NCBI GenBank assembly: GCA_945877135.1
Contig: CAMCQY010000025.1
Span: 1-36,007, forward strand
DNA: 36,007 bases
Reading direction: 5' to 3'
Origin: Candidatus Kuenenia stuttgartensis
Lineage (GTDB): Bacteria; Planctomycetota; Planctomycetia; Pirellulales; UBA1268
Position 1 is the stretch's first letter. Every line of letters starts with the position of its first letter. The notes beneath the pieces are model-generated. The model was not told the origin of the DNA and did no database searches. It saw nothing but the letters and a program-made list of their open reading frames with translations. The translations under genes were made by a program, and so were the position numbers. This document shows positions 2,773 to 31,634 of the stretch, in pieces.

Positions 2773-4124
2773 GACTCACTGCCCAGGTAGGCCTCGATCA
2801 CCTTCTCGTCCTGTCGCACCTCGGCCGGCGTGCCCTCGGCGATCTTCACGCCATGGTCGAGCACGGCCACGCGGTCGCTGATCCGCATCACCACGTTCAT
2901 GTGATGCTCGATGAGCACGACTGTCACGCCGCGATCGCGGATCCGCTCCACCAGCCGGGCCAGGTCGTCGGTCTCGGAGGGATTCATGCCGGCCGCCGGC
3001 TCGTCGAGCAGGAGAAGCTTCGCGCCGGTGGCGACCGCCCTCGCGATCTCCAGCCGCCGCTGATCGCCGTAGGGAAGCTGGCCGGCAATCCGGTTGGCGT
3101 CGCCTGCCAGTCCCACGAACTCCAGGCTCTCGATGGCCCGTCGCTGGGCTGCCGCCTCGGCCCGTCGATTCGCGGGCGACTGGAAGAGCATCGCCGGCAC
3201 GCCGCCAGGGATCGTGCGATCGAGGCCAACGAGCACGTTTTCGAGTACCGTCATGTTGGAGAAAAGGCGGATGTTCTGAAACGTCCGGGAGATGCCGGCA
3301 CGGGCGACGACGTTCGGCGACCGGCGGCCACGGTTCCAGACTGCGATCGTTCCGGCGGTACCGAGCAGCCAGCCGGCGATCAACCCCGTCCAGCCCCGGC
3401 GCCGCACCTTGGCCTTGCCGGCGGCCAGCCGATCGAGCACTTCCTCTTTCACGTGCGGCCTGCCTGCCGCAGCGTCCGCCACGCCCGCCAGATCGGTCGT
3501 GTCGGGCACGGTGCCCGGCCCTGCTCGACGGGCCGTCACTTCCGCCTGCAGCGCATCGCGAACGGCCTTGGCATCCGCGAGGTCGCGTTTGATCGCCAGC
3601 ACGTCGGTGCCGTCGGCGCTTACCACCCGCCACTTGCCTGCCATCTGATCGATCGCCAGTTCCGCCCGGAAGTAGCCACGCAGCCGCTCCGCAGCGCCGG
3701 TGAGCGTGAACCGGTCGCCCGTGATCATGCCCCGCTTCACCACAGCCAGCCAGAGCCGGTCGACGTCTACTGCCGCTGCGGCGAAGAGCAGGCCTGTGAG
3801 CAGCCCGATGCCGATCGCCGACCAGAACGTGCCGGCCGTGAACGACCGCTCCAGCCGGTGGCCCTCGAACCGCACCGACCCGCTCGTGGGCGAGTAGATG
3901 CCGCTGATCGTGTTGAAGGCGGTCGTCTTGCCGGCGCCGTTGGGACCAATGACCGAGACGATGCTCCCCGCCGGCACCGCCAGATCGAGTTCCGAAACCG
4001 CGACCAGACCCCCAAACCTGACCGTCACCCGATCCAGATCGAGCAGCGGCAAACCGGCCGCGTCGCGCAGGGACGTGCCGGCGGCAGACGACGAGGACGA
4101 CGATGTTTCGGGCTGCCGATTCAT
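2769..4124 (-). CDS. livG: Branched-chain amino acid-type ABC transporter ATP-binding protein LivG with a large internal insertion
   Basis: GPNGAGKTTAFNTISG, SRTFQNIRLF Q-loop, LPYGDQRRLEIARA, LLLLDEPAAGMNP, LIEHHMNVVM. 451 aa versus about 255 aa for typical LivG; extra sequence lies between residues ~94 and ~272. Confidence 0.94.
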   Translation of the reverse strand: MNRQPETSSSSSSAAGTSLRDAAGLPLLDLDRVTVRFGGLVAVSELDLAVPAGSIVSVIGPNGAGKTTAFNTISGIYSPTSGSVRFEGHRLERSFTAGTFWSAIGIGLLTGLLFAAAAVDVDRLWLAVVKRGMITGDRFTLTGAAERLRGYFRAELAIDQMAGKWRVVSADGTDVLAIKRDLADAKAVRDALQAEVTARRAGPGTVPDTTDLAGVADAAAGRPHVKEEVLDRLAAGKAKVRRRGWTGLIAGWLLGTAGTIAVWNRGRRSPNVVARAGISRTFQNIRLFSNMTVLENVLVGLDRTIPGGVPAMLFQSPANRRAEAAAQRRAIESLEFVGLAGDANRIAGQLPYGDQRRLEIARAVATGAKLLLLDEPAAGMNPSETDDLARLVERIRDRGVTVVLIEHHMNVVMRISDRVAVLDHGVKIAEGTPAEVRQDEKVIEAYLGSES

Positions 4125-7478: not shown

Positions 7479-7515
7479 GACTGATACTTTAGCAGACCCT
7501 GAGCCGCTGCGGTTC

Positions 7516-7646
7516 GGGGCTGCCCGTGCCCCGTCGCCGGACGTTCACTACGGCCATCCTGGCCTTCGCTCACTCGATGCTGACTGCGCTCCGGCATCCT
7601 GCCTGCGCTGGTCAGCAACGCCGGCTCTCGGGACACGGGCAGCCCC
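7516..7646 (-). repeat. Dispersed structured repeat, copy A (131 bp)
   Basis: ggggctgcccgtgccccg...cgggacacgggcagcccc terminal inverted repeats; near-identical to 15981-16111. Sense strand called minus from G.U pattern. Confidence 0.93.
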
Positions 7647-7707
7647 TCACAGATGATTCCTAGTCCCATCCAAGCGTCAAAAGGGTCCTGGCACCTTTTT
7701 CCTCCAT

Positions 7708-7732
7708 CCAAGCCCGCAGCGCAAGCAAGGGA
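7708..7732. repeat. REP-like arm ccaagcccgcagcgcaagcaaggga
   Basis: Near-identical to 1947-1971. Confidence 0.85.
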
Positions 7733-7759: not shown

Positions 7760-10213
7760 CTACCGTTTCACAAGCCGCCACGCCCTATGAATCCGTTCGT
7801 TCCGGAAGTCCTCGGGAATCGTGCGATTCGTGATCTCGCGGAGGGTGTAGAGGGCCGACAGACGTTCTTCGGCGAGATGAAACCGGCGGAAGTTGGTCGA
7901 AAAATAGACGACGCCTCCGGTCACGAGATTCTTCGCCACCAGTTCCAGGAGTTCGACATGGTCGCGCTCGATATCCCACGGCGTCTCGCTCTTCGCCGAC
8001 CGCGAGTAGGTCGGCGGATCGACCACCACGAGGTCGAACGGCGGCTCGCCACGCTGCGACCGGTGCTCGAGGAAGGCGCGGGCCTCGTCACGCACGATCC
8101 GGTGGCGACCCGCGTCCTTGAAGCCATTCTTCGAGAGGTTCGTCCGCGTCCACTCGAGATAGGTGTTGGAGAGATCGACGCTCACCGTCTCCTTGGCCCC
8201 GCCCGCGGCCGCATAGACGGAGAAACTGCCCGTGTAGCAGAAGAGGTTGAGCATCCGCTTCCCCTCGGCTTCGCCGCGGACCATGGCCCGCGTCTGCCGG
8301 TGATCGAGGAAGAGTCCCGTGTCGAGATAGTCGGAGAGATTGACCTCGAACGAGAGGTCTCCCTCCTTCACGGAGAGCAACGCCTGCCGTTGGTCCACTT
8401 TTTCATACTGCCCACCATCTCGCTGGCGGCGGCGTACCTTCAGGAAGGTCTGCATCGGCGGCACGCCCAGTTCCACTGCCGCCGCCTCGATCATCTTGTC
8501 GAGCCAGACGTCGTGCTCGATGTCGGTGCGTTCGTGCGGCCGCTCATACTCGGCGGCGTGCAGCCAGCCGGCATACCAGTCGATCACCAGCGGGATCTCG
8601 GGGATGTCGCGGTCGTAGACACGAAACGCCTCGATCCCTTGGCGGCGTGCCCACTTGGAGAGGTGTTTGAACCGCTTGGCGAGCCGGCGGCGGAAGTCGC
8701 CAATTTGATCGTCGGTCGTCCGCGCGCGCGAACGGCCGGTGGCCGGCATATCGTGGGCAGCGTCACTCGCGCCGACGGCGCCGGGACGGTGCGGGTTGTC
8801 TCGCGGGGGCAGGATAGCCTCATGCTCGCCATCCTCGCCCCGATCCCGACTTGCGGCGGTAACGCGTTCGCTCGTGGTGGCTGGCCCGCGGCCTTCGACC
8901 TGGGATAATTCGGGGGTGGCTCGCCTTCTGACCTCCACCTCCAGGAGCCGGCATGCGATCGGACCGTTGGAGAGCGGCACGCGATACGTGGGACGCAGGC
9001 CGAGCTGACCTGCAGCAGGCGTGTCGGCCGCGAGAATCGCCGCCCGCCAGCCGCCGCAGTGCTGCACGAGCCAGTCGCCAAACCGCCTGAAGAAGGCCGC
9101 AGACCGAGGGAGCGGCAGCCGCTCGCCATAGGGAGGATTGGTGACCACCAGCCCGCTCTCCCCCGCCGGCCTCGCCTGTTCGAAATGCTTTACGTCGATC
9201 GCGATGCACGATGCCACGCCCGCAGCCTCGGCACAGGCCTTCGCCGCGGCCACGGCATTCGGATCGAGATCGCTGGCCTGGAAGCCTCCGGCCGGTTCCC
9301 GCACGCGGGCCTCGAGCTCCGCCACCAGTCGATCAAAGAGCCCGCGGTCACAGTCGCGAAACCTAAAAAAGCCGTGGGCCTTCCGCCGCGCGCGATACAA
9401 GCCCGGCGCGATGCGTGCCGCGATCGAGGCCGCCTCGATGACGAGCGTGCCGGAGCCGCACATAGGGTCTAACAATAGCCCGCATGTCTCATCATCAACC
9501 GTACGCCCGCATTTCTCATCATCAACCGTACGCTCGCATGTCTCATCATCAACCGTACGCCCGCCGACATGCCACCAGCCCGCGATGCCGAGGATGCCTG
9601 CGGCCAACACTTCTGAGAGCGGCGCATCGACCTCACCCATCCGCCAGCCCCGCTGGTGAAGCGACCGGCCGGCCGCGTCGCGGAATATCGTCGCCGTGTC
9701 GCCCACCAGATGGAGCCCGAGCCGGAGGGTCGCCCCCCGCAGTTGCACGCTCGGCCGCTTGCCGCTCGGCGTGCGAAGCTGGTCCACGATCGCATCCTTG
9801 ACGATCTGCGCCGCATAGAGCGAGTGCGTGAGAAACGTGTCATGAATCGCAGCATCGACCCGGAGCGTGTCGGAGGTTTTTAATTCTTCCGTCCAGTCGA
9901 CCTCCTGCATCGCGCGATAGAGCGAGTCTGGGGAGTCCGCACGAAACCGTCCAAGCGGCTCGAGCACGCGGATCGCCGTCCGACTCTCGAGCACCGCCCG
10001 GTAGAGCGTCTCCTTCTCGGCCCCGGGAGCGGCCGAAAATTCGATCGTCCGCCGACCGATGCGAAGGTCCCGCGCACCGACTCGCTCCAACTCCCGCGCG
10101 AGGATCCATTCGAGACCTTCGAGCGTCCGCGCGGTCATCCGCGGCGGCTCGTCAGGCGACGGTGCCGGCAGCGGCCGGGGCACCGGGGGTACAGCGGGAA
10201 AGGGAGCGGTCAT
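7760..10213 (-). CDS. rlmL: Bifunctional 23S rRNA methyltransferase RlmKL (THUMP/RlmL plus RlmK domains)
   Basis: LLLDPMCGSGTLVIEAA, VVTNPPYGERL, MLNLFCYTGSFSVYAA, DLVVVDPPTYSRS. Start chosen at ATG 10213 (MTAPFPAVPP) because the longer ORF call runs into carB. Confidence 0.92.
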   Translation of the reverse strand: MTAPFPAVPPVPRPLPAPSPDEPPRMTARTLEGLEWILARELERVGARDLRIGRRTIEFSAAPGAEKETLYRAVLESRTAIRVLEPLGRFRADSPDSLYRAMQEVDWTEELKTSDTLRVDAAIHDTFLTHSLYAAQIVKDAIVDQLRTPSGKRPSVQLRGATLRLGLHLVGDTATIFRDAAGRSLHQRGWRMGEVDAPLSEVLAAGILGIAGWWHVGGRTVDDETCERTVDDEKCGRTVDDETCGLLLDPMCGSGTLVIEAASIAARIAPGLYRARRKAHGFFRFRDCDRGLFDRLVAELEARVREPAGGFQASDLDPNAVAAAKACAEAAGVASCIAIDVKHFEQARPAGESGLVVTNPPYGERLPLPRSAAFFRRFGDWLVQHCGGWRAAILAADTPAAGQLGLRPTYRVPLSNGPIACRLLEVEVRRRATPELSQVEGRGPATTSERVTAASRDRGEDGEHEAILPPRDNPHRPGAVGASDAAHDMPATGRSRARTTDDQIGDFRRRLAKRFKHLSKWARRQGIEAFRVYDRDIPEIPLVIDWYAGWLHAAEYERPHERTDIEHDVWLDKMIEAAAVELGVPPMQTFLKVRRRQRDGGQYEKVDQRQALLSVKEGDLSFEVNLSDYLDTGLFLDHRQTRAMVRGEAEGKRMLNLFCYTGSFSVYAAAGGAKETVSVDLSNTYLEWTRTNLSKNGFKDAGRHRIVRDEARAFLEHRSQRGEPPFDLVVVDPPTYSRSAKSETPWDIERDHVELLELVAKNLVTGGVVYFSTNFRRFHLAEERLSALYTLREITNRTIPEDFRNERIHRAWRLVKR
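9482..9562 (-). repeat. 27-bp tandem repeat, 3 copies, in frame within rlmKL
   Basis: gcatgtctcatcatcaaccgtacgccc / gcatttctcatcatcaaccgtacgctc / gcatgtctcatcatcaaccgtacgccc at 9482, 9509 and 9536; encodes RTVDDETCE RTVDDEKCG RTVDDETCG-type peptides. Confidence 0.97.
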
Positions 10214-15935: not shown

Positions 15936-15980
15936 GTCAGCATTATGCCATGAACAGCATGAGCACGGGCTACGAGGGCC

Positions 15981-16111
15981 GGGGCTGCCCGTGCCCCGTC
16001 GCCGGACGTTCGCTACGGGCATCCTGCCCTTCGCTCACTCGATGCTGACTACGCTCCGGCATCCTGCCTGCGCTTGTCAGCAACGCCGGCTCTCGGGGCA
16101 CGGGCAGCCCC
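15981..16111 (-). repeat. Dispersed structured repeat, copy B (131 bp)
   Basis: Perfect 18-bp inverted ends GGGGCTGCCCGTGCCCCG / CGGGGCACGGGCAGCCCC; same internal sequence as copy A. Confidence 0.95.
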
Positions 16112-16201
16112 TCACGCGTTTTGCAAAGCAGATGTCGGGGTAGCCGGGATCGGCGGACTCATTCCTTCTGCCGTCCCGGCGGTGCGAGTCGGTTGACTCC
16201 C

Positions 16202-24369: not shown

Positions 24370-24538
24370 TACGCTTTCGGCGTAGGTTGAACACCGGCTT
24401 CGGGGCGGCAAAAGTCTCGTCGCGTGGGCAGGATAGCCCAATGCTCCTCGAGCTTTCGCCGACCCCTTCGCCTACGTCTTCTGGTTTACTCGGGCATGGC
24501 TACAGCTATCGTGCATGCGTTCGAGCCCGCATCCGTGA

Positions 24539-24695
24539 GGGGCTGCCCACGTCTCGAGAGCCGGCGTTGCTGACCAGCGCAGGCAGGATGCCGGAGCGCA
24601 GTCAGCATCGAGTGAGCGAAGGGCAGCGGGCACCGATCCGTCTAAGCGGATTGGTCGACGAAGCGAACGTCCGGCGACGGGGCGTGGGCAGCCCC
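24539..24695 (+). repeat. Dispersed structured repeat, copy C (157 bp, inverted orientation, 26 bp longer)
   Basis: ggggctgcccacgtctcg...cggggcgtgggcagcccc ends; shares gagccggcgttgctgaccagcgcaggcaggatgccggagcgcagtcagcatcgagtgagcgaagggcag with the others. Confidence 0.93.
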
Positions 24696-24711
24696 GAACC
24701 GTCGCCATACC

Positions 24712-31300: not shown

Positions 31301-31634
31301 TGATCCGCACGCCGCCAGTGAGATGCCAGACGTCGTACGAGCCTTCCGTCCACCGCGCGGCCTGCGTGGCGTTGACCGTGACGTTCTCGCGCGGATCGGC
31401 CGACGGCACCTCGATCCTTCCCGCCTCGGCGATGGCCGCGGCCAGCCCGCGGGCAGGCAGCGAGGCAAGCGCGCCTGCGGTGGCCGTCTCCTTGAGCGGT
31501 TGCGCGTTGAGCGGTTGCGCGTTGAGCGGTTGCGCGTTGAGCGGCTGCACGGCAGCGGGAGGCTGCGCCGCAGCCGACCGTGTGCCCATCATCGTCACAA
31601 CGGCCGTCAGCAGGCATGTCACCAGCACCCGCAC
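28362..31634 (-). CDS. lptD: LPS-assembly protein LptD / OstA-like outer-membrane protein
   Basis: OstA-like N-terminal part (DISADRLVIWTRG, YMEGNVVFRQGQRVVEAVSMFYDV), then a long beta-barrel-like C-terminus. Best start guess is GTG 31634 (VRVLVTCLLTAVVTMMGTRSAAAQ signal peptide); the ORF call to 32330 includes non-coding upstream sequence. Confidence 0.8.
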   Translation of the reverse strand: MRVLVTCLLTAVVTMMGTRSAAAQPPAAVQPLNAQPLNAQPLNAQPLKETATAGALASLPARGLAAAIAEAGRIEVPSADPRENVTVNATQAARWTEGSYDVWHLTGGVRITQGTTEAVAHEAVVWIEQEPAPSIDGDAVDGEEMPPPAVRSMLVRMAGNVSVRSGAAGADAAATTVRGPRWTGRFWMHRDPTLEFASVVPNAGMPPIYDAPADRVVPVAYNADADAATEEPIQRAQFSEFGAAPVPQVNTATTARRLRAFPRSSVPLNIRWFPSPAGNEWVAVITSGVNLVVDGVDPAGPLDISADRLVIWTRGQSQPDLEGNAAQAGDVPLELYMEGNVVFRQGQRVVEAVSMFYDVPRSSGVITGATVLTPVDNYSGVVRLRADVLRQVDRSRFVAQQTGLTSSRLGVPSWEFRSRELEFTDEQVPLAGPGGQRAIDPVTGEPAVEHQQFITSRGNTLTLGGVPVLWWPVLATNAKKPTFYINNAQIKNDRIFGTQLLTSWDAFQVFGWRRPPDGVDWDFDVDYLSLRGPGGGTSLLYNRPDFLGFGGPASGDLDAWFIGDVGQDNLGLYRRDFTYPGYPNRTFRGRSFWRHRQDIGGSTESFFGGWQARGTAGWISDMNFLEEYYEAEWEEGYEQRTWLDLRRPIENRELRLLTSVRVNPFFTQSEWWPRLDHYWLGQPLLQDSLTWYQHSGVSYVRQNLPQTPTAGQGSSIWTTLPYENNVIGERLATRQEIDLPFQAGVVKIVPYALGELAHWGQDITQSPIDRAYGQVGVRSTLPMWTSDDSVESQLWNVHGLAHKVVWEAEFSYANSTQSITQFPLYDQIDDDTINQYRRNIPYWDYGAIPGQATPLGSPFVFGPSNKYDPRTYAVRRGMGGWVTGPTEIANDLTAFRLGARQRWQTKRGPMGNRRIIDWIVFDVDGELFPTTSQNFGQTLGLWQYDFRWHVGDRTTLLSTADVDFFTGGQQLYTFGALLNRTPRGSFYIGFNEFGGPIDASVLTGSYTYRMSPKWASSFGTALNLKGMNIGQNFQLVRIGESFLMTFGFNVDYSRNNVGFTFNLEPRFLSRTQFASRTGLDIPMAGAYGLE
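31492..31551 (-). repeat. 15-bp tandem repeat, 4 copies, encoding PLNAQ
   Basis: ttgagcggttgcgcg x3 plus ttgagcggctgcacg; translates to QPLNAQPLNAQPLNAQPLK just after the LptD signal peptide. Confidence 0.95.

Follow-up and report, generated by a model that had tools for sequence, protein, structure and literature searches.

The 36,007-nt stretch of DNA analyzed here (the window) carries three dispersed copies of a sequence that can fold into a branched structure, which raises the question of what kind of element this is: a structured RNA, or an element that folds and moves as DNA. A preliminary description had placed the copies at 7516-7646, 15981-16111 and 24539-24695. The copies and their coordinates proved to be right, and the family is larger than had been noted. 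A covariance model delimits copy A at 7513..7651 and copy B, our reference copy, at 15978..16116 (both on the minus strand), and a profile search places copy C at 24536..24697 on the plus strand; the enlarged P2 arm already described for copy C was seen again. A RAYT-type REP signature is located 5′ of copy A (7704-7715, minus strand), and the same signature, which is also that of the REPs at RAYT genes of the genus, recurs at 1893-1904 on the plus strand. The window also has short tandem repeats at 9478-9564 and 31492-31551 (27 nt × 3 and 15-nt units), which are probably inside coding sequence.

The three copies are members of a repeat family that numbers at least 65 copies in their own genome (G000, a 3.9-Mb metagenome-assembled planctomycete from a lake). 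A search of that genome, in which 40 of 118 candidates were scored, gave at least 42 matches to the element, and the signature of arm P3 or P2 was matched 85 times (0 for the reversed control). We aligned 69 distinct near-full copies from this genome. The element is about 155 nt long (130 to 155 nt), and its copies diverge by 9% within the genus and by 25% between genera. Because copies from sister species intermix, species-specific bursts can be ruled out. Searches with a covariance model built from 62 diverse copies detected the element in 43 of the 50 genomes that represent its own taxonomic family and in 0 of 200 genomes from other families of the order; among the genomes searched, its range is restricted to one planctomycete family. 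The element has no match in collections of plasmid, phage and viral contigs, nor in Rfam 15 at gathering or loose thresholds, in agreement with the earlier impression that no named RNA family resembles it. It is not described in the literature searched, whose coverage mostly left out subscription journals. Six element-bearing records (L063, L064, L090, L100, L114 and L121) are named Planctomicrobium piriforme, Candidatus Kuenenia or Chitinophagia; given the restriction of the element to one family, this suggests that these metagenome bins are misnamed.

The predicted fold is strongly supported by the alignment of the 62 copies. RNAalifold found 34 pairs, 28 of them with two-sided changes, and a hand-refined structure has 46 pairs, with 93.3% of cells paired. 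Two-sided changes occur in 33 of these 46 pairs (19.6 ± 1.7 in shuffled alignments), and the covariation score is 0.330, compared with 0.130 ± 0.006 after shuffling and 0.030 to 0.056 when the structure is slid along the alignment. The three-way junction proposed from three copies is thereby upheld. It consists of P1 (17 bp, 15 pairs changing on both sides), P1b (5 bp, conserved and without covariation), P3 (two-sided changes in 8 of 9 outer and 3 of 6 inner pairs) and P2 (7 of 9 pairs). As an RNA, copy B has a minimum free energy of −92.7 kcal/mol against −62.4 ± 3.7 for shuffles (z = −8.2), its complement reaches −86.9 kcal/mol (z = −6.8), and copy B folded as DNA reaches −54.9 (z = −7.9).

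In copy B, read on the minus strand throughout, the 5′ arm of P1 (GGGGCTGCCCGTGCCCC, 16095..16111) pairs with its 3′ arm (GGGGCACGGGCAGCCCC, 15981..15997), and the 5′ arm of P1b (GCCGG, 16086..16090) pairs with CCGGC at 16001..16005. Arm P3 occupies 16040..16085 (CGTTGCTGAC..AGCGCAG-GCA-GGA-TGC..GGAGCG..GTCAGCATCG) and arm P2 occupies 16008..16038 (GTGAGCGAAGGGCA-GGA-TGCCCGTAGCGAAC, with tandem G-A mismatches), both ending in a GGA loop. Outside P1, a conserved 5′ edge, GCGTGA (consensus GAnGnATCCGTGA), at 16112..16117 was defined from the information content of flanking sequence in 94 copies and from flank classes. P2 and P3 are built alike. From an outer helix, each continues through a G/A-rich mismatch, two G-C pairs that are conserved, and a GNA/GNA internal loop to a covarying stem of 4 to 5 bp, which ends in a loop with GGA. 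Both arms read AGCG-N-AG-stem-GGA-stem-CG-N-AGCG, GGA is present in 271 of 282 scanned arms, and a conserved CGTC follows arm P2. The helices of the preliminary description all exist, with changes at their borders. P1, given as 18 bp, has 17, and of the 8 bp assigned to P1b only 5 were kept. Its last three pairs give way to the bases of P3 and P2, since covariation is seen in the latter alone: pairs 34-86, 35-85 and 37-83 at the base of P3 swap TA and AT in 26 sequences, and the outer P2 pairs 88-120 and 89-119 swap TA and CG in 20 sequences. Similarly, the GCGC/GCGC pairing of P3 retains two almost invariant pairs (48-71 and 49-70), and its remainder is better read as the GNA/GNA internal loop.

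Covariation by itself does not say which strand folds. From three copies, it had been noted that mismatches are G·U and not A·C on one strand, and that a balance between the strands would speak against a transcribed RNA. Across 226 distinct copies, the pattern holds, with 305 G·T and 37 A·C pair cells; parsimony on the tree counts 151 changes from a Watson-Crick pair to G·T and 33 to A·C (P = 3e−19). Since the corresponding transition classes at unpaired columns are balanced (ratio of 1.12), a mutational strand bias does not account for the asymmetry. The one-sided wobble and the balanced control therefore indicate that selection acts on the fold of one strand, and this fold is maintained by selection. 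More generally, covariation over hundreds of copies, combined with wobble asymmetry and an unpaired-site control, makes a one-strand fold of a dispersed bacterial repeat demonstrable. The asymmetry cannot, however, distinguish RNA from single-stranded DNA, of which strand-specific folding is equally expected, as with REP and IS200/IS605-type elements. An apparent preference for one replication strand (P = 0.0001) disappeared on exclusion of the nearest 450 nt and is probably due to C-rich neighboring modules.

We surveyed the surroundings of 244 unique copies, 181 of which had both neighboring genes called; genes were predicted by a simple codon-usage caller, so that individual assignments may be in error. 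Of the 181 copies, 86 are in convergent gaps, which account for only 16% of element-free intergenic bases, and the remaining copies are in co-directional (85) or divergent (10) gaps; nine more copies run into predicted coding sequence. In convergent gaps, the 3′ end of the element lies a median of 26 nt from a stop codon and its 5′ end 137 nt, and 73 of the 86 copies are nearer to the stop codon at their 3′ side. The copies are thus located mostly 3′ of genes. Within co-directional gaps, 45 copies are in sense and 40 in antisense orientation (P = 0.66), so that the element does not have the fixed orientation relative to a neighboring gene that a cis-acting RNA should have. In the flanks of 94 copies, conservation extends about 13 nt beyond the 5′ end of P1 and 11 nt beyond its 3′ end, the conserved edges being GAnGnATCCGTGA and GAACCGTCGCC, and the information content beyond them reveals neither a promoter nor a terminator. 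The proteins encoded beside the copies include no recurring mobile-element family, only ordinary genes.

The space 5′ of the element is often filled by a palindromic module. Among 104 copies from the genus, a REP signature (on either strand) occurs upstream of 26 and downstream of none, and a second module, U, occurs upstream of 20 and downstream of 2. The upstream REP is the same REP that flanks RAYT genes in the genus. Module U (GTATACACG, a hairpin whose GGA is on the opposite strand, CCGGCCCTCCGGGCC) and the element appear to form a block that is inverted between two sister species, with the outer arms the same (L242:1000-1560 and L323:1150-1600).

The presence of the element at orthologous loci varies between species, the level at which all compared genomes differ. 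Locus A is full in G000, interrupted in G002, and reduced to the 3′ arm of P1 in the sister species G001 and G003; at locus C, G002 has no element, and the copies present in G000 and G001 face opposite ways. Occupied and vacant orthologous sites compare at 271 vs 3 nt, 349 vs 16 nt, 291 vs −4 nt and 415 vs 46 nt. Several loci have the element in opposite orientations in sister species, as found by a screen that favors such cases and gives no frequency. In-place inversion with exchanged edge sequences was ruled out as a general rule, as 100 copies have canonical edges and 1 has swapped edges. In G001 and G003, locus A holds precise one-arm remnants (CCGTGA-GGGRC..GCCCC-GAACCG), and a nearly identical junction is found at a second site, G001:C8. 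Such remnants could have arisen from slippage between GGGGC repeats or from REPIN-like excision; they call to mind the asymmetric excision that has been reported for REPINs (PMC3116915). No target duplication of 4 to 10 nt was found at any fixed offset, with boundaries taken from conservation rather than from strain-level empty sites. Where elements form pairs, 12 are head-to-head, 3 direct and 0 tail-to-tail.

Based on these observations, we consider it rather probable that the element is a non-autonomous, REPIN-like mobile element that acts via folded single-stranded DNA and is not a regulatory RNA of its neighbors. Its layout may be read as that of an enlarged REPIN, in which long imperfect terminal inverted repeats (P1) surround a conserved interior with two look-alike arms. 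One strand, exposed as single-stranded DNA, would fold into the three-way junction, which an enzyme supplied in trans would recognize. Most insertions would be 3′ of genes, frequently immediately 3′ to a RAYT-type REP hairpin, and copies would later be lost or reduced to one P1 arm. We infer that the folded species is single-stranded DNA rather than RNA, that a transposase-like enzyme processes it, and that the copies are mainly selfish.

The comparison with REPINs and BIMEs, the REP doublets mobilized by RAYT, supports the likeness and marks its limits. Both are dispersed, intergenic and non-autonomous, have inverted-repeat ends and a folded single strand, accumulate compensatory changes, leave one-arm remnants, occur as inverted pairs, and frequently cluster with other palindromes (PMC3116915). 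REPINs have conserved 16-mers 71 bp apart, whereas our element spans 130 to 155 nt, and in REPINs the REPs are better conserved than the spacers, whereas the interior of the element is conserved and builds a three-way junction (PMC3116915). This interior is far more conserved than reported REPIN spacers and could have a function of its own. The element has no GTAG-type REP and no GTAG at the hairpin foot, its edges being those given above. As a dispersed intergenic inverted-repeat element with a single-strand fold and inverted doublets, it resembles REPINs; because RAYT linkage and the GTAG foot were looked for and not found, we class it with the REP/REPIN kind as a variant rather than a member. 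The CGTC-tagged REPs (PMC3733652) are likewise REP-like, without a dedicated transposase and mostly in head-to-head dimers, and the element has its CGTC after P2. They form one stem of 8 to 9 bp with a loop of 4 to 5 nt, in contrast to the several helical segments of the junction, and Planctomycetes are not among the CGTC-positive phyla given in the Results of that study (PMC3733652).

The folded species could instead be RNA, transcribed as part of the 3′ ends of neighboring genes and serving in mRNA stability, processing or protein binding, functions that have been suggested for ERIC and NEMIS, with selection on the transcript maintaining the copies. Such a role for the folding strand is possible, since the wobble pattern fits RNA as well and the copies are found at sites where read-through transcripts terminate; the z-score of the RNA fold and the rarity of copies between divergent genes (10/181) also agree with it. 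The main argument against it is the lack of orientation preference, which means that nearly half of the copies would be read as the complementary strand. The absence of a conserved promoter, terminator or any flank past about 13 nt, and the presence and absence of the element at the same genes in sister species, weigh in the same direction. We therefore regard an RNA role as rather unlikely. For these reasons, and because single-stranded DNA predicts equal strand specificity, we do not follow the preliminary description in taking the one-sided wobble as favoring a transcribed RNA. A wider caution follows: covariation in repeats is no proof of an RNA gene, as single-stranded DNA structures leave an identical mark.

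Turnover at orthologous loci, the long terminal inverted repeats and the lack of coding sequence would also fit a classical MITE of a DDE transposase, with P1 corresponding to the inverted ends of an insertion sequence that has been lost. ERIC/IRU, a 127-bp repeat of enterobacteria that is of similar length, imperfectly palindromic, intergenic and present in both orientations, is a TIR/TA-type MITE with target duplication (PMC2229807). Our element differs from ERIC in fold and sequence and has no target duplication at any consistent offset; moreover, a strand-asymmetric fold is unexpected for a double-stranded intermediate, and no protein family recurs beside the copies. We consider this origin distinctly unlikely.

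The two GGA-loop hairpins resemble CsrA targets, so that the copies might form a predicted RNA pool that binds CsrA, akin to the CsrB/RsmZ-type small RNAs with their several GGA-loop hairpins. The near-universal GGA of the arms fits this idea, as do the CsrA hits in the genomes (six in G000 and at least two in every genome tested) and P2 variants such as GGACAGGATGTCC, which resemble the CsrA SELEX core. CsrA, however, is found in all 37 genomes, including those without the element, and because of this lack of co-occurrence the GGA loops are suggestive only. A CsrA-binding pool would leave the GNA/GNA internal loops and P1 unexplained, and half of the copies run antisense to the transcription around them. 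Unlike CsrB and RsmZ, the element does not form an autonomous gene with its own promoter and terminator; it is present in many dispersed copies with extra conserved internal loops. This possibility appears very unlikely. CsrA-domain hits number 2 to 5 in the other family genomes tested, against the six in G000.

A bacterial retroposon copied by reverse transcriptase would need a folded RNA, and the strand-specific fold agrees with this; it is nevertheless exceedingly improbable, as the RVT_1 domain is absent from all five genus genomes (G000-G004, four of them 90-96% complete). IS110 transposases are absent from the same five genomes, which eliminates both as the mobilizing enzyme. The attC sites of integrons also seem a poor fit, as gene-cassette arrays appear to be lacking and the edges of the element are unlike the R boxes.

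For the REPIN-like mobile element that we favor, RAYT was considered as the enzyme. Y1 transposases of the RAYT type exist in the genus, but the element profile had no match in the 20 such loci fetched from the family and order, and no Y1 transposase was seen in several element-rich genomes; RAYT was therefore rejected as the cognate enzyme. The RAYT genes of the genus are flanked by tandem REPs, CCCCCGGCTTGCGCCGGGGGCTTTTATGG / ATTCCCTTGCTTGCGCTGCGGGCTTGGATGG (L173:2044-2253 and 2791-2995; L174:2116-2246 and 2837-3055), and in G001 the REPs that flank them are of the CCCCGGCTTGCGCCGGGGGCTTTTATGG type and differ from the element. With its unusually elaborate three-way junction, the element offers a concrete target for finding the mobilizing enzyme. 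More speculatively, the AGCG-N-AG-stem-GGA-stem-CG-N-AGCG arm might be the recognition unit of a widespread single-strand nucleic-acid system with a non-RAYT enzyme, which would move or maintain the three-way-junction elements of this planctomycete family as well as repeats of other construction that have similar arms (G097, Eremiobacterota and Xanthomonadales), although we hold so broad a system to be improbable.

Outside the family, the distant planctomycete G097 has 34 matches to the arm motif AGCGNAG..GGA..CGNAGCG (L224-L231), in a differently built repeat (GCGCCAGGATGGCGC, GAGGGGGCGAAGCCCCCTC, AGCGGAGGCCAGGGATGGCCGGAGCGACGAT), and counts of the motif are near chance in most other genomes of the phylum. 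The exact 21-mer CGCAGGCAGGATGCCGGAGCG is found in other repeat-like hairpin clusters, of Eremiobacterota (L079 and L124) and of Xanthomonadales (L084, L086, L117, L125, L127, L130 and L138). Its occurrence in unrelated phyla may reflect either convergence or a common recognition unit.
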